From Marinobacter excellens HL-55 (GTDB lineage: Bacteria; Pseudomonadota; Gammaproteobacteria; Pseudomonadales; Oleiphilaceae), in assembly GCA_001314845.1 (NCBI GenBank), contig LJZQ01000002.1:128765-192764 (forward strand): DNA of 64,000 nucleotides, read 5' to 3'. A program made the translations under genes and the position numbers. Shown here in pieces: positions 49,680 through 61,541 of the stretch; within the stretch, counting starts at the first letter, position 1; each line of letters starts with the position of its first letter. The notes below the pieces were generated by a model. The model was not told where the DNA came from. It ran no database searches and worked only from the letters and a program-made list of their open reading frames with translations.

Positions 49680-50501
49680 TTACGCAGTCATCGAACGTCT
49701 GCGGTAACGTGTAAAAATTCCCAACAGTCCAAGCCCGATCAAAGCCAGAGACGACGGCTCAGGAACAGACGCCGAAGGCTGACAAGCCGGGTTGGTTGGG
49801 TTCAGCTGGCAGAAATCCAGGGTTTCCTGCAGTTTGGCATTGGCGAAGTCTGTGACGAACTGTTGTACCACTGCTTGATCAGTAGAGTTGAACAGGTTCA
49901 GGTCAAAGACGTTTCCACCGTGGTTTGTAATCAGTGATGAAAACGAGTTAATGGTTGTGGAGCCTCGCAACACACCGTTATACAGGGCATTGTTGTCGGT
50001 CAACAACTGATCAAGAACCGAGTTTGATACTGCGACACCACCGCTGGTGCCGCGGCTGGCGAAATCACCGTTGGAAGGCTCGTCGGTCAGGATGATTATG
50101 TTCTTGACGGCATTTGAGCGGAATGAGAACAGGTCAGTCTGGCCATCCAATTCGTTCAGGGCAAAAGCAGTAGCCGTGTAGCCAGGCTCAATAAAACCGT
50201 TAGTCCTCAGGCCCTGTGCTGCCGTTGCAAAGTTGGCGGGATCGGTCAGGTCAGTGACCAGGCGTGGCACGGCGGAGTTGTCACCATAGCCCACCAGTCC
50301 ATACTGGGCGTTAACTTGACCGGTTCCGGTCAGGATGCTGGCGAACAGGCCAATGTTATTGCGCAGGTTGGTTTGCACATTGCCCATCGAACCAGACTCA
50401 TCAACCACAAAAATGATGTCACTGAGTATCGCAGAGTGTGCGGGGGTTATGGCAGCTGCCGCTGACAGAACCAAAGCTGAGAAAAAGCGCTTGAGTTTCA
50501 T
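49680..50501 (-). CDS. PEP-CTERM-anchored von Willebrand A domain protein
   Basis: A 273-residue exported protein. The signal peptide is about 1-23 (cleaved after AHS). A vWA domain carries the MIDAS motif DESGS at 34-38, with further metal contacts expected near GYTATAFALN and LTDEPSNGD. The C-terminus has the PEP-CTERM tripartite signal: PEP at about 247-249, helix LALIGLGLLGIF, and basic tail RYRRR. Such proteins are processed by an exosortase, often in exopolysaccharide-producing bacteria. GAGGTAAG precedes the ATG. No exosortase gene lies in this window. Confidence 0.92.
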   Translation of the reverse strand: MKLKRFFSALVLSAAAAITPAHSAILSDIIFVVDESGSMGNVQTNLRNNIGLFASILTGTGQVNAQYGLVGYGDNSAVPRLVTDLTDPANFATAAQGLRTNGFIEPGYTATAFALNELDGQTDLFSFRSNAVKNIIILTDEPSNGDFASRGTSGGVAVSNSVLDQLLTDNNALYNGVLRGSTTINSFSSLITNHGGNVFDLNLFNSTDQAVVQQFVTDFANAKLQETLDFCQLNPTNPACQPSASVPEPSSLALIGLGLLGIFTRYRRRSMTA

Positions 50502-53110: not shown

Positions 53111-54199
53111 TCAGTTGTTGAACGTTGTGTAGAGCAGGTTCGACATGCTGGTCTGGTTTGAGCCGGGTACTTCAACGTACTGGCTGCCAGAACCCCACAG
53201 TTGCCACCAGGCTCGCTGATTATAGGTGCGGCTGGCAAAGTCTACCTGCAACCCGTTAAGCACGGTGTTGTTCACCACAGGCACCGCAATGTTTCCGGTC
53301 TGGGTGTCTTTCACAGCGCTGTGATTGGCGCCTTCGCTCATCAGGATCGGGTAGTGGTTGTAGTAAAGGCCGGAAGGACCGTTCTGACCGGTTACCTGAC
53401 CGCCCAGGCTGATCGAGTTGGAGCAGCTATCAATACCGCTGGCCGTGGTAGCACCGCAGGCCGAGTGAGTGGGAACCACGCCATCGTCGGTGCCGGCAAT
53501 GAACGGCTTGGTAATGCCACCGTATGAGGAGCCGCCGCCCACAAAGCGCAGTCTCGGGGTGGCAGTCGGGCCGGTCGACAGGTTACGGGCGGTGTTGGTT
53601 TGCAGGTCGTTCACCACGCCAAGATTGTAGGGCTGAGGATCAATGCCGGTGAAGGCACGAACAGCCTGCTTGACTGGCCAGTTGTACCAGCTGTCGTTGT
53701 AGGCAATGCTGACCGCCAGGTTGGCCAGCTCAGTGCCACCGCCGGCCCCCGCAAGATCCATCACAGCGAGAATCTTCAGAGGTTGCAGGCCTTCGGACTG
53801 CAGCCAGCGGGCCTGGTTTTCGAGCAGGTGTCTCGTAACAAGATCGCCGGTTGAGTGAGTCACCACTATGCAGTAGTTATTGCACAGGCCCTGCTGGCTG
53901 ATCTGGCGCACTTGCTGGTAGGCCTGCTGCGCAATCTGGCCTTCTACCCGGCCGTCACTGCCCCAGTCAATGCGAGCCTCGGCACGGTTCAGCCAGTAAT
54001 CCCGCCAATAGTCCTCGCCGGCCTGCTTGAGCGCCTATAGGTTGGCTGGCGCTTCAGACAGGTTCTCCATCATAAAGCCGTGTACCAGTATCACGTTGTG
54101 CCCGGCCAGTTGTGCCTGGGCGTTCGTGGCCATCAATCCCCCGGCCAGCGCTAGCGAAAGTGCCGTTTTGTTCAGGCTTCTTTTGTTGTTGTTAATCAT
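53111..54199 (-). pseudogene. Secreted lipase-like alpha/beta hydrolase with in-frame TAG
   Basis: A 362-codon frame broken by TAG at codon 55 (54035-54037). Before it: a signal peptide (cleaved after AQA) and the oxyanion-hole block VILVHGFMMEN. After it, in the same frame, the rest of the enzyme: nucleophile Ser in VVTHSTGDLV, Asp in AGTDDGVVPTH and His in EGANHSAV. The codon is between Leu and Ala, where CAG (Gln) would need only one change. No other damage is seen, so the lesion is recent, a sequencing error, or suppressed. No lipase foldase gene is adjacent. Confidence 0.85.
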
Positions 54200-54235: not shown

Positions 54236-54973
54236 TCAGAACTTGTCAGCCAGTTGCCTTAGCAGCGCTGCCCGTTGCTCTGATTCTGGGTTCACAGCCG
54301 GTTCATCACGGAGTCTATCGAGATCCGGCGGTGAAAATTCGTAACCTTCATCGGGGCCGAAAGCATAATGTGTGCGATCGCCTGGCCGGGCGGGCATCTG
54401 GCGAATCTGCAGGTTTTTGAGCTGAAGTTCACCGCTGACATCACGGTTTGCCAGCACGCTGCCATGGGCACGCAGAAGCAGTGTTCCGCTACTACCGCTG
54501 AGAGAGTCCTCGGCGCTGAGTTGGGCCAACGCCCGCTGGCCGTTGTATAACTGGGCCGTTAGCGCGTAGTAGCCGGCATTTTCCGGATCAAACTGAACCG
54601 GGATCACCAGGTCGTTGCCAGAAATGTAAGGCGAGTCAATACCGTTGAAATCGCCCAGGTCGGGTTCAATGGAAAGGGATGAGACATGTCTTACCGGGCG
54701 GCCATCCACCCGAGCCTCGACGATCAGCCGATATTCGCCGGGTTCGTGATCGGAGCTCAAATTGCCCTGGTAGTATCCGGTTTCTTCGGTGGCATGCAGT
54801 TCAGCAGAATCGGCACGATCCTGTTCGGAAGCGGTTTCCAGGGTGGCAGCCAGGGAATCACCAAACACCTGGCGTCCACTCAAGGAGGCAACCACCAGGA
54901 TGGGCTCGCCCCGGGTAAAGCGGAATTTGTCCAGGGTGACGACAAACACGCCGTGTTTAGACGGTGTTCTCAA
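54236..54973 (-). CDS. Hypothetical protein with two Ig-like beta-sandwich segments
   Basis: A 245-residue protein I cannot assign to a family. Two all-beta segments are visible (about 8-90, with FRFTRGEPILVVASL and GEYRLIVEARVDG; and about 95-190, with AGYYALTAQLYNGQRAL). The C-terminal tail (YEFSPPDLDRLRDEP) is disordered-looking. It has no signal peptide although its neighbours are exported, so either the start is wrong, or it is a truncated secreted protein. The TTG at 54973 overlaps the YceI stop (TTGA). It sits between the YceI and lipase genes in one operon. Confidence 0.6.
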   Translation of the reverse strand: MRTPSKHGVFVVTLDKFRFTRGEPILVVASLSGRQVFGDSLAATLETASEQDRADSAELHATEETGYYQGNLSSDHEPGEYRLIVEARVDGRPVRHVSSLSIEPDLGDFNGIDSPYISGNDLVIPVQFDPENAGYYALTAQLYNGQRALAQLSAEDSLSGSSGTLLLRAHGSVLANRDVSGELQLKNLQIRQMPARPGDRTHYAFGPDEGYEFSPPDLDRLRDEPAVNPESEQRAALLRQLADKF

Positions 54974-55563
54974 GGTTTCAATATGGCCTCAAATCCGAAC
55001 CGTAGGGTTACCTCATCCCCGACCATATTCTGATCCAGTCCGTAGGTCATGCCCCAATCGCTGCGTTTGATGACAGCGGAAGCACTGATGCCTAACGTGT
55101 GCTTTTCATGCCCGAACGGGTAGACATCGGCCTTGTTGAGCGTGACATCCACATCCACCGGGTTGGTTTGCCCCAATAGCGTCAAATCGCCGGTTACAAC
55201 GCCTGTGTTGTCGCCTGTGCGCTCAAAACCGGTGACGTCGAAGGTGATGTCTTTATGCCGTCTGGTGTCCAGAAAATCCTTGTTACGCAGGTGATCATCC
55301 CGCTTGTCGTGGTTTGTGAATACGCTATTGGCTTTGAACAGCAGCTGGCCAGAGGACAACTCCCCGGTGTCTTCGTCGTAGACAAACTCACCTTCCACTT
55401 CCTTGAAGATGCCCATGACCGGGGCGTAGCCGATGTGCATCACTTCAAAAGCCATGGAAAAGTGCTCGTCATCCACCTCGAAGGTTGCGGGGGCGGCGAA
55501 AAGTGTTGGTGAGGCGGCCATCAAAAGCGCGGCGGCGGACGTCTTGATAAAATCAGTGTTCAT
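54970..55563 (-). CDS. YceI-family periplasmic lipocalin-like protein
   Basis: A 197-residue exported protein with signal peptide about 1-23 (cleaved after LFA). The YceI fold is recognised from FEVDDEHFSMAFEVMH near residue 28, VFTNHDKRDDHLRNKDFLD, and the C-terminal GDEVTLRFGFEA. YceI proteins bind isoprenoid/polyprenyl lipids in a beta-barrel. Its start overlaps the CDP-alcohol transferase end by 11 bases, and GAGGAG precedes it. Its lipid-binding role fits the membrane-lipid theme of the cluster, which is inference. Confidence 0.9.
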   Translation of the reverse strand: MNTDFIKTSAAALLMAASPTLFAAPATFEVDDEHFSMAFEVMHIGYAPVMGIFKEVEGEFVYDEDTGELSSGQLLFKANSVFTNHDKRDDHLRNKDFLDTRRHKDITFDVTGFERTGDNTGVVTGDLTLLGQTNPVDVDVTLNKADVYPFGHEKHTLGISASAVIKRSDWGMTYGLDQNMVGDEVTLRFGFEAILKP

Positions 55564-56287
55564 GTTGAGTTCTCCTCAGGTAAAGCCAGCGTACATCCAG
55601 ATAAAACGACCAAGCCAGAAGCATTAAAGCCATGGTGAGCGTAATGCTGGCGAATGTAATGGGAATCGGGGGTACAACCGCTACCATCAACGTGACTACC
55701 TGCCACACGCAGACGGTTTTGCGACGGAAGCTTTCAGGCAATGGCTGATTTAGCCAGTCCAGATAATAACTGGCCGCCACGAACAGGTAGCGCATCAATC
55801 CGAGTGCAAGTACCCATATACCGGCCTTGCCCAGTGCCAATACCGCCACACAAAGGCCCAGGATAAACAGAGCATCCAGTTCCATATCAAAGCGGGCGCC
55901 AAACTCGCTGTGACTATTGGTTGCCCGTGCCACCTTGCCATCAGCGCCATCCAGAATCAGAGCGAACAAACAGGCAACAGCATAGAACCAGAGACCGGCG
56001 GAATCCGATGACGACAGAAAGGGCGCCCAGGCCACCAGAGGAACCACCAGTGCAGAGCGCACAAGCGTGGTTCGGTTGGCCCAACCGAAAGAACGGTTTG
56101 CGGGCCAGTAAGCGAGGATCAGGCCGCCCTGAATTATGAACAGCAGTCCTGCCAGTACCAGGAATAAGCCCGGTGGACTGAACGGGTAATCAATGGTCCA
56201 CAGCACAACCATGGTCAAAACAGACGCCCAGCCTAGCTCCTTGGCGGTGCCAGGAATCTGATTTGAAGCCGGTTGAATCGAATCCAT
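55553..56287 (-). CDS. CDP-alcohol phosphatidyltransferase family protein
   Basis: A 244-residue polytopic protein with the complete family motif D-G-x2-D-G-x2-A-R-x8-G-x3-D-x3-D, here from LDGADGKVARATNSHSEFGA on through FDMELDA near residue 130-150. It transfers a phosphoalcohol between a CDP-alcohol and an acceptor, so it makes a phospholipid or related lipid. The acceptor is not predictable; it is not obviously PgsA or PssA. The ATG at 56287 follows GAGAGA. It is divergent from the MDR gene across 111 bases. Confidence 0.88.
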   Translation of the reverse strand: MDSIQPASNQIPGTAKELGWASVLTMVVLWTIDYPFSPPGLFLVLAGLLFIIQGGLILAYWPANRSFGWANRTTLVRSALVVPLVAWAPFLSSSDSAGLWFYAVACLFALILDGADGKVARATNSHSEFGARFDMELDALFILGLCVAVLALGKAGIWVLALGLMRYLFVAASYYLDWLNQPLPESFRRKTVCVWQVVTLMVAVVPPIPITFASITLTMALMLLAWSFYLDVRWLYLRRTQHEH

Positions 56288-56398
56288 ATTCTCTCGCGTC
56301 CGTATTGCCTGTGTATTGTGCGTGTTAGACCCCATTGTGTAACTATAGTTTGGGGGACATGGTTTTGCTTACGGAGCCTATCAACGAATGGACTGTTT

Positions 56399-57379
56399 AT
56401 GACTACACCAGACAACCGGGCATTCTGGGTGACCGGCCCTGGCCGCTGTGAAATCAAGCCTGCGGTGCTTGCGCCGGATATTGATACGGAAGGGCCGATG
56501 GTCACCGTGCGCTCCCTGTATTCCGGAATAAGCCGCGGCACCGAATCTCTGGTGTTCAATAATCGGGTGCCGCCCGGGGAATATCACCGAATGCGGGCGC
56601 CCTGGCAGGAGGGCAGTTTTCCTTTCCCGGTCAAGTATGGCTACGCCAACGTGGGTGTCGTCCTGGAAGGCCCTGCCGAGCTGAAGGGCCGGCAGGTTTT
56701 TTGCCTGTATCCTCATCAGCAGCACTATCGGGTGCCGGCTGGCGCAGTCACGGTGTTACCGGAGCAGGTACCACCGTCGCGTGCAGTGCTTGCCGCGAAC
56801 ATGGAAACTGCCATCAACGGCCTGTGGGATGCTCAGCCTGCGGTGGGGGACAGGGTCGCTGTGGTCGGGTTAGGCGTAGTCGGATTACTGGTTGCCTGGT
56901 TGGTGCGCCAGATTCCCGGGGTGGAGCTGTTGGCCATTGATACCAACTCGACACGACAGGCCGTCGCGGAGGCGCTGGGCCTGCCTTTTTCTACCCAGGC
57001 AAGCGCTGAAGGTTGTGATCTGGTTGTCCATGCGTCCGGCCACAGCGCGGGGCTTGAGTCAGCGCTGGCGATGGCCGGGCAAGAGGCCCGCATTGTTGAA
57101 CTCAGCTGGTACGGAGACGCTGCCGTCAGTGTTCCTCTGGGGCACGCCTTTCACCCCAATCGTCTGGAGTTGAAGTCCAGCCAGGTAGGGCAGATTCCAC
57201 CAGCACGGCAGCCGCGTTGGAGCTATCAACGGCGCCTCGCGTTGGCGCTGTCTTTGTTGCGTGCGCCAGAGCTGGATGTCTTGATCAGCGGTGAAAGCCG
57301 GTTTGACGAGCTACCGGAGATTGCCAATCGCCTTTTTTCACCAGAAGCAAACGCACTCTGCCACCGAATCATTTACTAA
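56399..57379 (+). CDS. MDR-superfamily oxidoreductase without catalytic zinc ligands
   Basis: A 326-residue medium-chain dehydrogenase/reductase-like protein. The Rossmann segment VAVVGLGVVGLLVAWLVR is near residue 155. Where zinc alcohol dehydrogenases have a Cys at the active site, this protein has SLYSGISRGTESLVF. FPVKYGYANVGVV precedes it in the family pattern. It is therefore probably zinc-independent. The substrate is unknown. It heads a four-gene operon with a pterin-synthase-like gene. The ATG at 56399 is favoured by similarity; the frame is open 42 codons upstream across the divergent promoter. Confidence 0.82.
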   Translation: MTTPDNRAFWVTGPGRCEIKPAVLAPDIDTEGPMVTVRSLYSGISRGTESLVFNNRVPPGEYHRMRAPWQEGSFPFPVKYGYANVGVVLEGPAELKGRQVFCLYPHQQHYRVPAGAVTVLPEQVPPSRAVLAANMETAINGLWDAQPAVGDRVAVVGLGVVGLLVAWLVRQIPGVELLAIDTNSTRQAVAEALGLPFSTQASAEGCDLVVHASGHSAGLESALAMAGQEARIVELSWYGDAAVSVPLGHAFHPNRLELKSSQVGQIPPARQPRWSYQRRLALALSLLRAPELDVLISGESRFDELPEIANRLFSPEANALCHRIIY

Positions 57380-57392
57380 CCGAGGAATACCT

Positions 57393-57791
57393 ATGTTCAG
57401 CCTGACCGTTCGAGACCACATGATGATTGCCCACAGCTTTACCGGCGAGCTCTTTGGCCCCGCTCAGGGGCTTCACGGCGCCACCTATGTGGTAGACGTG
57501 ACTTTCGAACGTCATGTTCTGGATGATAATGATCTGATTGTTGATATTGGCCTTGCATCCGATGTGCTTAAAGCCGTACTCGGAGAATTCAATATGAAGA
57601 ATCTGGACGACCTGCCGCAATTTAACGGCCGCAACACCACCACCGAGTTCATGGCGAAGACAGTTTTTGATCGTATGGCGCAGGCGATTCATGAGGGGCG
57701 GCTTGGCGAAGACGGCAAGGGCATTGTCAGCCTCAAGGTTACCCTGGGCGAATCCCACGTGGCCTGGGCCAGTTACCATGCCGGCATCTGA
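57393..57791 (+). CDS. Divergent 6-pyruvoyl/6-carboxy-tetrahydropterin synthase family protein
   Basis: A 132-residue tunnelling-fold protein related to QueD/PTPS. His14 in MIAHSF and His28 in LHGATY match two zinc ligands. The third ligand (His of the usual HGH) is Ala30, and the catalytic Cys that normally precedes this block is absent. The C-terminal ESHVAWASYHAG keeps the substrate Glu. Canonical queuosine or biopterin chemistry is thus doubtful. CGAGGAAT precedes the ATG. Its stop overlaps the next gene by 14 bases, so the two are tightly coupled. Confidence 0.85.
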   Translation: MFSLTVRDHMMIAHSFTGELFGPAQGLHGATYVVDVTFERHVLDDNDLIVDIGLASDVLKAVLGEFNMKNLDDLPQFNGRNTTTEFMAKTVFDRMAQAIHEGRLGEDGKGIVSLKVTLGESHVAWASYHAGI

Positions 57792-59712
57792 CTTCTGGTT
57801 TGTAGTGCCGGGTGATCCGGAGCAGAACACCGGTGGTTATCGTTATGTTCGGCGCCTGGTTGAGTCGCTGAATCATGCTGGCATCAATACGCGGGTTCAT
57901 GGGTTGTCCGGGCGCTATCCCCGGCCAGATCAAGAGGCCGAAAGGGCAATGCAGGACTTTCTTGCGTCTTTGCCTGATGGCGCCCGGGTTGTTTTGGACG
58001 GCCTGGCGATGGGTGCCATGCCTGAAGTATTGCAGCGCCACCGGCGGCGGTTGCAGTTATCCGCGTTGGTGCATCATCCACTGGCCGATGAAACGGGTCT
58101 GGCGGCGGACCAGCAAGTCTGGTTCAAGCAGATTGAAACCCGGGCGCTCGCCCAGGTTGGCCGGGTGTTCACAACCAGCGACTACACGGCCGTGCGCCTG
58201 GAGCAGTCTTACGGTGTGCGAGGGGATCGCATAGCCACGGCGCAACCCGCCGTTGATGATGTGTTCTTCTCGATAGATCGACCCGACCGCGCTGAGGGCC
58301 AGAGCAACCCGCTCAGACTGCTGTGCGTTGGCCATTTGTCACCCCGCAAGGCTCAGCATCAGTTGGTAGATGCGTTGTCGACGCTGACGGATTTGCCCTG
58401 GCAGTGCACGCTCGTGGGCGCACAAGACCGTGACCCGGATTATGCCGCAACGGTGATCAGAGCGATTGCCGACAAAGGTCTCACTGACCGCATTGCGCTG
58501 ATGGGCGAACTCAGCGAGCACCAGATCGCCACCGCCTACGCCGAGGCTGATCTGTTCGTATTCCCGTCGCTTTATGAAGGCTACGGCATTGTGATTGACG
58601 AGGCCCTGGCCGCGGGCCTGCCGGTACTGTCCTCTGATGGCGGGGCGCTGGCGCTCACCACAGAAAAGCCAGGTACCATCACGTATCCGGCCGGGAGCGT
58701 CTCCGAGCTGACGGATCGGCTGCGATCGCTGATCCGCAGGGTCGACGATTTAGCGATGCTGAGCGATCAGGCCCGTTCATCCAGAGCAGGTATTCGCCGG
58801 TGGTCCGATACGGCCCGTGACTTTCTGGAAGGCATGAAGCTTGCCGAGAGGGATGATCCGGCCCGTTTTTCCGGGCAATGGCTCGAAACCCGCGAGCCGG
58901 CCGACCACGCTGCCCGCAGCGAAGCCTTAACCGACACTTTGGCCCAATGGCTGATGACCCGGTATGACCAACGATCGCTGCATGAGGGCTCGGCGCCGCC
59001 GTTGCAGCACGTTGATATCGGCACCGGCCGAGGCTCTAACCCTGCATACCTTGTTCCCCGGGTGCCGGTGCCTCAGCAATGGACCCTGGTAGAGCCTGAC
59101 CTGGGGCTTTTGCAAGCGGCTACCCGCAGGGTGGAAGCATTGGACGCACCGGCAAGCCCCCTCGACCTGGAGCTGAACGCAGATAACCTGGAGTCTGTTT
59201 TACCGGCGGATGCCGATCTGATCACCGCCTCTGCGTTGATTGATCTGGTTTCAGAGCCGTGGCTCGCGGCCTTTGCCGCAGCGATTACTCGCCGGCGCGC
59301 AGCGGTGCTGGTGGTTTTGAGTTATAGCGGTCAGTTTGACTTGGCGCCGGCGCACCCATTGGATTCACTTGTGCAGAGCCTGGTTAATCGTCATCAGCAC
59401 GGCGACAAAGGCAGTGGCAGTGCCCTGGGACCGGAGGCGACCGAGGCATTGGCGCAACATTTGAAGATTGCCGGCTATCAGGTTCAGGTGACCGAAAGTC
59501 CCTGGTGCCTGGGTGGAGACCGCAAAGACGCTGCACTGATCGACATGTTGATGGCCGGCTGGGCGAAGGCGGCCGTTGAGCAGGATGGCCAAGCGATTGG
59601 TGCCGTTAACCGTTGGTTGAGCGATCGACGGGCACAACTGACAAGAAACGAGCTGATGGTGACGGTTGGTCATCTGGACTTGCTGGCCTTTCCTGAAGAC
59701 GAACGCCGCTGA
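57778..59712 (+). CDS. Glycosyltransferase (GT4) fused to a SAM methyltransferase-like domain
   Basis: A 644-residue cytosolic two-domain protein. Residues 1-365 are a GT-B glycosyltransferase: N-terminal acceptor domain (FWFVVPGDPEQNTGGYRYV), a glycine-rich turn at LCVGHLSPRKAQH, and the E-x7-E motif in PSLYEGYGIVIDEALAAGLP near 265. Residues about 420-640 are a class I methyltransferase-like domain, with motif I HVDIGTGRGSNPAYL. No signal peptide. The ATG at 57778 lies inside the PTPS gene end. The sugar donor and the methyl acceptor are unknown. Confidence 0.85.
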   Translation: MPASDFWFVVPGDPEQNTGGYRYVRRLVESLNHAGINTRVHGLSGRYPRPDQEAERAMQDFLASLPDGARVVLDGLAMGAMPEVLQRHRRRLQLSALVHHPLADETGLAADQQVWFKQIETRALAQVGRVFTTSDYTAVRLEQSYGVRGDRIATAQPAVDDVFFSIDRPDRAEGQSNPLRLLCVGHLSPRKAQHQLVDALSTLTDLPWQCTLVGAQDRDPDYAATVIRAIADKGLTDRIALMGELSEHQIATAYAEADLFVFPSLYEGYGIVIDEALAAGLPVLSSDGGALALTTEKPGTITYPAGSVSELTDRLRSLIRRVDDLAMLSDQARSSRAGIRRWSDTARDFLEGMKLAERDDPARFSGQWLETREPADHAARSEALTDTLAQWLMTRYDQRSLHEGSAPPLQHVDIGTGRGSNPAYLVPRVPVPQQWTLVEPDLGLLQAATRRVEALDAPASPLDLELNADNLESVLPADADLITASALIDLVSEPWLAAFAAAITRRRAAVLVVLSYSGQFDLAPAHPLDSLVQSLVNRHQHGDKGSGSALGPEATEALAQHLKIAGYQVQVTESPWCLGGDRKDAALIDMLMAGWAKAAVEQDGQAIGAVNRWLSDRRAQLTRNELMVTVGHLDLLAFPEDERR

Positions 59713-60674
59713 TGATTCATCACAGAGGCTGGCCCAAGCTGTTGCTGCGCTGGTTGACTACGCTTGTAATTCTTGGACTGGTATTTGCCTTTGTCGACTT
59801 GTCGGCACTGGGAGCCAGGCTGGCCACGGTGCCGGTTTCTCTGATCGTTCTCGCGTTGGGCTTCTCGGTTGTGCAAGTGGTGTTATCTGCTTGGCGTTGG
59901 CGATATACCGCGGGCCGATTGGGAATCGCCATTCCGATGGGCTTTGCCGTTCGGGAGTATTACCTGGCCAGTTTCCTGAATCAGGTTTTGCCGGGGGGTG
60001 TGATGGGTGACGTTAACCGCGCCTGGCGCCACAGCAAGATACATACGGAAGCTAAATCCGAGCGTTCAGGACGGTTAGCCGCGATTCACGCGGTGGCGCT
60101 TGAGCGGCTCTCGGGCCAATTGGTGTTGGTGCCAGTGGTTTTAATCGTGTTGGGTGCTCTGTGGGCGAGCGGCCAGTTTGCCTCACGCCGTTTGCCAACG
60201 GACGTGGCGCTGAGCTCAGGATATTGGCTATTGATACCTTTGTTGGTCGGGATAGTGGTGTGGTTGCTGTTTGCCAGTGGCAAGATCACGGCGATGGCCC
60301 GATATGTAGGGCGCCTTTGGGAAGACCTTCAATTGGCGTTTTCTGGTTGGCGGACCGGTTCTGTTCAGCTGATAACATCACTTTCGGTGCTCGGTACTTA
60401 CCTCCTGGTGTTCATGCTGATTGCCGTGGGAATGGGGCTGGCTGAGGACGGTGCAACCCTGGCGTTGACCATGGCTCTGTGCCTGGTGCTTTTGCTGGCT
60501 ATGGTGTTGCCTATTACGGTATCCGGGTGGGGCGTGCGTGAGGGTGCGGCGGCACTGCTTTGGCCGGCGGCGGGGCTGCCGGCCGATCAGGGCGTTGCCA
60601 TCAGCGTTGGCTACGGCGCGCTGATTTTTCTGGGTAGTTTGCCGGGCGCGCTAATGCTGCTCCGAAAGTCCTGA
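59712..60674 (+). CDS. UPF0104/lysylphosphatidylglycerol-synthase-TM-like flippase protein
   Basis: A 320-residue polytopic inner-membrane protein with about eight helices. The family block YYLASFLNQVLPGGVMGDVNRAW near residue 78 is clear, and PITVSGWGVREGAA near 260 is the second. Members of this fold move lipids or lipid-linked groups across membranes. Its ATG overlaps the GT-methyltransferase stop by one base, suggesting that its cargo is that enzyme's product. Its 3' end overlaps the convergent RibD-like gene by 24 bases. Confidence 0.85.
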   Translation: MIHHRGWPKLLLRWLTTLVILGLVFAFVDLSALGARLATVPVSLIVLALGFSVVQVVLSAWRWRYTAGRLGIAIPMGFAVREYYLASFLNQVLPGGVMGDVNRAWRHSKIHTEAKSERSGRLAAIHAVALERLSGQLVLVPVVLIVLGALWASGQFASRRLPTDVALSSGYWLLIPLLVGIVVWLLFASGKITAMARYVGRLWEDLQLAFSGWRTGSVQLITSLSVLGTYLLVFMLIAVGMGLAEDGATLALTMALCLVLLLAMVLPITVSGWGVREGAAALLWPAAGLPADQGVAISVGYGALIFLGSLPGALMLLRKS

Positions 60675-61541
60675 TGGGTGTGCGGTTTTGTCGAAGTCCA
60701 GATCAAACAGCATATCGCTGCCAAGATTGATCAACTGGGCCCGTGGCCGAAGGGCTTCATCCAACTGATCGATTTCTGGCAATGAGAACGCCGGGCGGCC
60801 ACTGCCAATAATCATCGGGGCGACCATCACGTGCAGGCGATCGAGCAAACCCGCATTCAGAAAAGTCGACACCGTGACCCCGCCACCTTCGATAAAAATC
60901 TTGTGCAGTCCCGCATCCTGTAACACGCGCAGAATATGCTCTGGCTGAACCGGAGTCTCACTGTCTGGATCACCCAGGCAGGGGATGGTGGTTACTGTTC
61001 CGTTGGTGTCAGGTTGGCGGGCTGGATCATAGTCACCGGCCACCAGGTGCAGTGTGGGTGCCTCGCCATCGGTAAACAGGTGATGGGTGAGCGGTACCCG
61101 TCGTTTGCGGTCGATCACTACCCGTACTGGATTGCTGCCGCTGGTCCGCCGGACGGTCAGGCGGGGATTGTCTGTGACTGCCGTACCTGCACCCACGACA
61201 ACCGCATCACACAGAGCGCGGATTCGATGCAGGTGAGTAATGCCGTCGTCGCCGTTGATAAAACGCGAACAGCCGGTCACCGTGGCAATCCGGCCGTCCA
61301 GGCTCTGACCCAACTGGCCGATCACCCGGGTGCCAGACGCGCTCTGAACGGGCAGGCACAGCGGGAGAAAAACCGAGAGCAGGTTTTTGACGTCATCGGT
61401 CGCCTGATCAACCAGCTCCCAGCTTTTGCCGTTCAAACGGAGCGCTGGATGATCGCTCCCGGGCACGGGCAGCGTCACATTACTGCGATTGATCGCACTC
61501 AGAATAAGATTCCAGGTGTTGTCTGCGTCCAGGGTGACCAT
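60651..61541 (-). CDS. RibD C-terminal-type (DHFR-fold) reductase
   Basis: A 296-residue protein. The C-terminal 220 residues match the RibD reductase domain: GQLGQSLDGRIATVTG, then RALCDAVVVGAGTAVTDNPR and FIEGGGVTVSTFLNAGLLD. The N-terminal 65 residues are unrelated to the RibD deaminase. It probably reduces a pyrimidine or pterin ribosyl compound with NADPH. Standalone reductases of this sort occur outside riboflavin operons. It faces the pterin-like operon and overlaps its last gene by 24 bases. Confidence 0.85.
   Translation of the reverse strand: MVTLDADNTWNLILSAINRSNVTLPVPGSDHPALRLNGKSWELVDQATDDVKNLLSVFLPLCLPVQSASGTRVIGQLGQSLDGRIATVTGCSRFINGDDGITHLHRIRALCDAVVVGAGTAVTDNPRLTVRRTSGSNPVRVVIDRKRRVPLTHHLFTDGEAPTLHLVAGDYDPARQPDTNGTVTTIPCLGDPDSETPVQPEHILRVLQDAGLHKIFIEGGGVTVSTFLNAGLLDRLHVMVAPMIIGSGRPAFSLPEIDQLDEALRPRAQLINLGSDMLFDLDFDKTAHPSGLSEQH

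Follow-up and report, generated by a model that had tools for sequence, protein, structure and literature searches.

A conserved gene set around a PTPS-fold protein in Marinobacter excellens HL-55 may direct synthesis of a GTP-derived, pterin-like and plausibly lipid-linked product

Introduction

Genes for pterin-type and lipid-type enzymes lie side by side in a 64,000-nucleotide stretch of the Marinobacter excellens HL-55 genome (contig LJZQ01000002.1, positions 128,765 to 192,764; hereafter the window). The question that they raise is whether they serve one pathway and what that pathway would make. The genes encode an MDR-fold oxidoreductase (MDR), a protein with the fold of 6-pyruvoyl tetrahydropterin synthase (PTPS), a fusion of a GT4 glycosyltransferase (GT) with an S-adenosylmethionine (SAM)-dependent methyltransferase (MT), the flippase-like membrane protein UPF0104, a stand-alone RibD C-terminal reductase (RibD), a CDP-alcohol phosphatidyltransferase (CDP) and a YceI-family protein. 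At a probability of about 0.5, we propose that they form a single biosynthetic pathway leading from GTP to a pterin-like, glycosylated and methylated product that is probably lipid-linked. The GTP-derived pterin-like chemistry is likely; the lipid linkage of the product is plausible, and the weaker of the two claims.

The nearest solved relative of the PTPS-fold protein is SCO6650, whose structure paper is reportedly that of Spoonamore, Bandarian and colleagues (2008). We know of no function for SCO6650 or for any locus of this PTPS family. A preliminary description of the locus had called the pathway undescribed. This wording is qualified by the solved SCO6650 structure (PDB 3d7j) and by SCO6655, which is entered as a GTP cyclohydrolase II in the tabulated part of a report where most of the listed genes are said to rise in stationary phase (PMC2853524). 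It stands in so far as no publication on the pathway or the cluster was found in the open-licence literature, subscription papers being outside the search.

Results

Conservation of the gene set

At least 586 loci encode this PTPS family in one collection scan. For a gene-neighbourhood search with PTPS as the query, 96 loci were chosen by their PTPS gene: 16 from a sample of the class (the window genome was left out) and 80 named loci, which are the best 80 of at least 586, are biased toward close relatives and take in 12 Marinobacter, 14 Halomonas or Vreelandella and 11 Streptomyces. By BLAST, MDR was located near PTPS in 95 of the 96 loci, GT in 94, MT in 92, CDP in 86, UPF0104 in 74, RibD in 72 and YceI in 42. 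The pairing of MDR and PTPS in distant bacteria, which the preliminary description had suggested, was found to extend over several phyla, and the single conserved gene set that was postulated with it is present far beyond chance. All-against-all clustering and inspection revealed two further members, a creatininase-family gene and GTP cyclohydrolase II (RibA), each in 54 of the 96 loci.

A second count was restricted to loci in which PTPS is flanked by 5.5 kb or more on either side, which excluded 17 and kept 79. It gave MDR in 78, GT in 79, MT in 79, CDP in 73, UPF0104 in 66, RibD in 64, RibA in 51, creatininase in 50 and YceI in 37. RibA and creatininase were both present in 49 of these loci, both absent in 27 and single in 3, and UPF0104 was never found without CDP (p 6e-6); both tests ignore kinship. 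L103, which has a short flank and is outside the 79, carries UPF0104 without CDP. The usual order is YceI–CDP divergent from MDR–PTPS–GT–MT–UPF0104, then RibD–RibA–creatininase. In L021, L023, L075, L105 and L107 the order is changed with the members still together, and YceI stays near the CDP gene in the rearranged L021, L023, L075 and L107. Distance-matrix correlations between the families are positive for all pairs (Spearman 0.53–0.80), a comparison made without an unrelated control gene and weak as evidence.

The set from YceI and CDP through MDR, PTPS, GT, MT and UPF0104 to RibD is kept in L030, L031 and L032, which belong to three genomes of 1.0–1.1 Mb in one family (94–99% complete; 28–32% GC in the fetched loci). 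That three such small genomes, each about 1 Mb, have retained the set speaks for a basic role over an optional natural product. L067, from a metagenome-assembled genome (MAG) labelled archaeal, is taken for putative contamination because its contig is only 5 kb long. RibA lies beside the set without creatininase in L021 and L023, and creatininase without a RibA match in L024 and L103. In L097 (Halomonas sulfidaeris), the members are doubled or split (c M M P G G T U d d A A r r), perhaps by frameshifts.

PTPS, MDR and a CDP profile were each run against 369 genomes from the class, drawn identically. PTPS of this family occurs in 17 genomes. MDR at 218 bits or more was detected in the identical 17 and in none of the 352 others (Fisher 1e-29), the remaining MDR scores forming a group of four genomes at 135–153 bits and one of twelve at 57 bits or less. 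The CDP family reached at least 116 bits in all 17 PTPS genomes, and at least 100 bits in two of the 352 others (G010, 107 bits; G249, 128 bits), with five further genomes among the 352 at 50–59 bits. Chance clustering, raised at the outset as the case against a common pathway, fails as an explanation in view of the co-occurrence of PTPS, MDR and CDP in the same 17 of 369 genomes. Genomes in which CDP does not adjoin PTPS nevertheless carry it: G068 has PTPS on contig C1, and MDR together with CDP on C4; in G279, CDP is on C10, apart from PTPS; and in G138, CDP and PTPS are on different contigs, both pieces at contig ends.

The four genomes with intermediate MDR scores (G010, G249, G182 and G174) contain the set in a divergent form. 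Locus L121 has CDP, RibD, MDR, PTPS and GT; L122 has RibA–RibD, MDR, PTPS and MT, with CDP, GT and UPF0104 about 10 kb off; L123 has RibA–RibD, MDR, PTPS and GT; and on the 7.9-kb contig L124, RibA, RibD and MDR are present with no PTPS match. PTPS of the divergent loci is 23–30% identical to that of the window. PTPS of the L122/L123 subfamily bears an HxH motif (HSH or HAH) with no Cys nearby, as read by eye. Within the genus, 15 of the 24 other genomes have the PTPS of the window type (at least 75 bits), so it is not universal there.

The PTPS-fold protein and the MDR enzyme

The window PTPS shares 61% identity with SCO6650 over a local alignment. Its family profile also picks up 6-pyruvoyl tetrahydropterin synthases and enzymes of the QueD type, with much weaker scores. 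The protein is similar to these enzymes in the PF01242 domain and in a conserved late glutamate, while it differs in that the catalytic triad and one zinc ligand are replaced. At the aligned positions that we take to be catalytic, the Cys is Ala24 in 96 of 96 loci, the Asp (position 67) is Asn in 87 and Thr in 9, and the His (position 68) is Met in 20, Phe in 25, Tyr in 35 and Leu in 16. Two of the three presumed zinc histidines, His14 and His28, are kept in every locus, and the third is Ala in 95 and Thr in 1. Glu120, presumably the pterin-anchoring glutamate, is kept in all 96. Because the catalytic residues are replaced and Glu120 is kept, these sequences suggest that the protein likely has an altered activity towards a substrate resembling a pterin.

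The same residues bear on whether the protein is merely the QueD of this genome, serving queuosine among unrelated neighbours. It is the sole PTPS-family match in the genome at the threshold used, and QueC is present, which would suit such a role. However, the catalytic Cys, Asp and His and the third zinc His are replaced throughout, PTPS is strictly linked to MDR and CDP, and each of the other 24 genomes in the genus has another PTPS-family frame (about 290–500 residues, 26–32 bits), with or without the PTPS discussed here. Searches with PF01242 and PF06508 led us to disfavour a queuosine role, which we find hardly credible.

MDR gave no Pfam match at E 0.01, and its best NCBIfam match, to an MDR dehydrogenase, was 37 bits, below the cut-offs. 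The Foldseek neighbours of its predicted model, with a predicted local distance difference test (pLDDT) score of 92.7, are for the most part dehydrogenases of polyols, sugars and alcohols, 13–21% identical to it. The catalytic zinc ligands of zinc-dependent MDR dehydrogenases are a Cys and a GHE motif. Where these are expected, S45 and G81-Y82 are invariant in 46 of 46 aligned rows (by eye), and the enzyme is apparently an MDR-fold oxidoreductase devoid of the usual catalytic zinc ligands.

RibD, RibA and creatininase

The window RibD has no deaminase-domain match, and the eubact_ribD model matched it only from position 143 on. The deaminase Cys motif was found in 0 of 72 cluster RibD copies, and the letters HAE in 2. 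The genome contains a second RibD_C, located on contig C45 in a 374-residue frame. A family search gave two GTP cyclohydrolase II frames, one of 239 residues on C27 and one of 402 residues on C45, the latter about 0.8 kb from the C45 RibD_C; the C27 copy could serve this pathway. RibA and creatininase do not adjoin RibD here, unlike in many other genomes, and creatininase was not detected in this genome or in G142 at the Pfam threshold, at which G171, G365 and G279 were positive as controls. The cluster creatininase-family proteins of L048 and L095 match PF02633. The preliminary description linked PTPS and RibD-fold enzymes to pterin or pyrimidine compounds; enzymes of this chemistry do stand at the core of the set, as cyclohydrolase II, creatininase, stand-alone RibD and PTPS cluster in other genomes.

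At the position aligned with Tyr105 of the E. coli enzyme, the 54 cluster RibA proteins have Tyr (41), Met (11), His (1) or Ile (1). The Met copies are the 11 from Streptomyces, His is in L105 and Ile in L058 (L058 and L077 were read by eye). Ordinary GTP cyclohydrolase II has Tyr here and is not known to need a formamidase; SCO6655, with Met at this position, reportedly stops at the formyl product. Met was tried as a marker of creatininase loci and failed, as 39 of the 41 Tyr-type copies also have creatininase. The Salinicola cluster RibA of L048 (14459–15598) begins with about 165 residues that have no Pfam match.

According to PMC9478397, BrbF, a creatininase-family protein of Sinorhizobium meliloti, removes formate from a GTP-derived formylaminopyrimidine and serves riboflavin synthesis, its cyclohydrolase partner there being unknown. 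The cluster creatininases are likened to BrbF at the level of the family, and in the clusters of other genomes they have cyclohydrolase II as a neighbour. Two riboflavin-type enzymes together with a BrbF-family protein would fit a branch that supplies riboflavin for the envelope or for secretion through duplicated RibA and RibD. In contrast to that expectation, the cluster RibD is devoid of a deaminase, and no RibB, RibH or RibE was recognised among the conserved neighbours in a list read by eye and not annotated per family. PTPS, GT4, MT and CDP enzymes have, to our knowledge, no place in riboflavin synthesis, and a riboflavin branch appears very unlikely.

PTPS of the 11 Streptomyces loci is 80–94% identical to SCO6650. 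Most of these loci are ordered PTPS–GT–MT–UPF0104–creatininase–RibA, with five genes from PTPS to RibA, and the spacing of the SCO6650 and SCO6655 tags suggests the same order in S. coelicolor. The Streptomyces sets differ from the window in that they are mostly without RibD, have no YceI, and have a RibA with Met where others have Tyr.

Gene fusions

GT and MT form a single frame in 20 of the 96 loci, among them Marinobacter, some Halomonas, Castellaniella and a Gemmatimonadales MAG. In the window protein, the methyltransferase half scores weakly (Table 1), and its stand-alone homologue in L048 is over the cut-off at 36.1 bits. In L122 (16070–17413) and L123 (8504–9805), one frame combines GTP cyclohydrolase II with a RibD reductase that has no deaminase. 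L126 has a CDP-alcohol transferase joined to an FkbM methyltransferase, with UPF0104 and a sulfatase-like protein next to them. These three kinds of fusion support one chain from GTP with a separable membrane module. As for the glycosylated and methylated product of the preliminary description, the GT–MT fusion links both steps, and the product itself, like its reduced state and its attachment to the membrane, is predicted from gene context.

The membrane module

The CDP-alcohol motif D..DG..AR....G...D...D (D113, D116, G117, A120, R121, G130, D134 and D138) is invariant in 37 of 37 sequences. In VIA-align, the CDP model (pLDDT 91.7) matched PgsA first (Z 14.8, 2.8 Å over 167 residues), then phosphatidylinositol-phosphate (PIP) synthases (Z 12.0 to 10.9), phosphatidylserine synthase (10.4) and choline phosphotransferase (10.0). 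Helical proteins call for caution up to about Z 13, a level that only the PgsA match exceeds. The enzyme is similar to PgsA and PIP synthases in catalytic motif and fold. For MtPIPS, S132, K135, R155 and R195 are described as binding inositol phosphate (PMC4634129). For an enzyme of the PgsA type, a ribityl 5'-phosphate would be a fitting substrate.

Near the set, 21 of the 96 loci also carry OpgG and 19 carry OpgH, both of periplasmic glucan synthesis, while an FkbM methyltransferase occurs in 18 and a sulfatase-like membrane protein in 16. The set might accordingly make a lipid-borne head group for periplasmic glucans, whereby the CDP enzyme would make the lipid, UPF0104 would flip it and a sulfatase-fold transferase would move the head group. 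The same-strand order opgG–opgH–MDR–PTPS in L077 (5135–8841) and L103 (3–3183), with opgG-like and opgH-like frames of two Gemmatimonadales MAGs, the separate module of CDP–FkbM, UPF0104 and sulfatase-like protein in L126, and sulfatase domains over the Pfam cut-off in L126 and L076 are consistent with such a role. However, the sulfatase-like protein is without a Pfam match in L094 and below the cut-off in L078, and a search found no solved relative for that of L126. OpgG of M. excellens is on contig C24, with the cluster on C51, and is not in the window. Across the class, OpgG is present in 7 of 17 PTPS genomes versus 52 of 352 others (p 0.0099) and lies within about 7 kb in one of the 17 (G365), and neither the Streptomyces loci nor L030–L032 gave an OpgG or OpgH match. 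A head group for glucans is improbable on these grounds. The opg genes were rejected as a general partner, being lineage-specific and occasional; cytochrome b561, in 4 of 96 loci plus L121, was rejected as too infrequent.

Layout of the window locus

The genome comprises 3.78 Mb over 55 contigs, and contig C51 holds the locus. The seven genes of the locus have open frames at 54970–61541 (Table 1), the GT–MT frame being 57778–59712. YceI and CDP overlap by 11 bases on the strand opposite to the run from MDR to UPF0104. In that run, the MDR–PTPS gap is 13 bases, PTPS and the GT–MT gene overlap by 14 bases, and UPF0104 starts at the last base of the GT–MT gene. Owing to the tight spacing and overlaps, the four genes are plausibly one operon. 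RibD_C is convergent with UPF0104, the tails overlapping by 24 bases. The architecture given in the preliminary description, a coupled run facing RibD and divergent from YceI and CDP, agrees with this layout; its range of 55553–61541 holds the other named genes and leaves YceI outside. No sigma-70-like site was found in a search for a shared promoter in 56200–56480. The window PTPS is 92% identical to that of Marinobacter locus L034, the closest among the named matches listed.

Table 1 Features of the gene set in the window (positions of the 64,000-nucleotide stretch).
Feature	Position	Strand	Basis and remarks
YceI-family protein (periplasmic lipid-binding by family)	54970..55563	-	PF04264 134.9 bits; optional set member
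CDP-alcohol phosphatidyltransferase, membrane	55553..56287	-	PF01066 68.4 bits
MDR-fold oxidoreductase	56399..57379	+	weak NCBIfam MDR matches and confident MDR-fold model
PTPS-fold protein, SCO6650 (PDB 3d7j) family	57393..57791	+	PF01242 80.6 bits; 3d7j E 1.3e-50
GT4 glycosyltransferase half of fusion	57778..58932 (boundary approximate)	+	PF00534 86.3 bits; PF13692 83.6 bits
SAM-dependent methyltransferase half of fusion	58933..59712 (boundary approximate)	+	PF13649 E 0.0023, below cut-off
UPF0104 / LPG_synthase_TM flippase-like membrane protein	59712..60674	+	PF03706 125.3 bits
Stand-alone RibD C-terminal reductase (RibD_C)	60651..61541	-	PF01872 136.2 bits

Elsewhere in the window, 49680–50501 encodes a von Willebrand factor A protein bearing a PEP-CTERM sorting motif. 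The frame at 53111–53911 starts with GTG and has 266 residues; other Marinobacter loci have a 361-residue lipase-like frame (by eye), and the window copy may be shortened or frameshifted. Downstream of the window, 2-methylcitrate-type and exopolysaccharide genes were recognised by eye, with two Pfam checks.

Discussion

The gene set can be arranged as a chain of five steps, in which GTP would give a 2-amino pyrimidine or pterin ribotide that is then glycosylated, methylated and probably linked to a lipid. GTP cyclohydrolase II would open GTP to 2,5-diamino-6-ribosylamino-pyrimidinone 5'-phosphate, either directly or by way of a formyl compound that the creatininase-family formamidase would remove; here, the supply would come from one of the two cyclohydrolases elsewhere in the Marinobacter genome. 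The stand-alone RibD would then reduce the pyrimidine without deamination, as suggested by the missing deaminase and by the RibA–RibD fusions in relatives, so that the 2-amino group that marks a pterin would stay. Next, the re-purposed PTPS-fold protein and MDR may act on the ring or side chain, in an order that the scheme leaves unset. The families and the fusion suggest that the GT4–methyltransferase would glycosylate and methylate the product. In the last and weakest step, the CDP-alcohol enzyme would probably couple the product to a lipid through its phosphorylated polyol arm, in the way that PgsA uses glycerol phosphate, after which UPF0104 may move the lipid across the membrane and YceI or other envelope proteins may handle it.

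Several observations weigh against this scheme. In Foldseek, no match to the CDP model reaches E 0.001 (PgsA comes nearest, at 0.027), and the CDP sequence profile is nearer to choline phosphotransferases (1.2e-7) than to PgsA (1.8e-4). Nine of the 24 other genomes of the genus are without this PTPS, the creatininase beside the Tyr-type RibA copies is unexplained, and the PTPS-fold protein could bind something other than a pterin. Near the core, CDP is missing in 6 of the 79 loci and UPF0104 in 13, and no RibD lies beside the set in 10 of the 11 Streptomyces loci, so that its step is not universal locally.

These last absences would also suit a split route of the neopterin type. The related T-fold GTP cyclohydrolase I closes the second ring of its product by an Amadori rearrangement. 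By the same chemistry, the zinc-poor PTPS-fold protein would close the second ring on a diaminopyrimidine ribotide made by cyclohydrolase II and the formamidase, with RibD as a pterin reductase; the product would be a pterin that is glycosylated and soluble, with the membrane genes acting in its export. In contrast, the RibA–RibD_C fusions point to reduction straight after the cyclohydrolase, and the CDP family accompanies PTPS in 17 of 17 genomes, even where unlinked (G068, G279). We regard a neopterin-type route as possible, and on balance rather doubtful.

For the proposed pathway from GTP to a lipid-linked product, a more speculative extension can be offered. The product might, tentatively, represent a new class of membrane lipid in several phyla, including the three marine-type genomes of about 1 Mb; its head group would be a glycosylated, methylated and redox-capable pterin built from GTP, flipped outward to serve as a cofactor anchored by lipid or as a donor of head groups.

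With this gene set, the orphan structure 3d7j gains a context that can be tested. The set also places a cyclohydrolase beside a creatininase-type formamidase, and it predicts a guanine-derived envelope metabolite.

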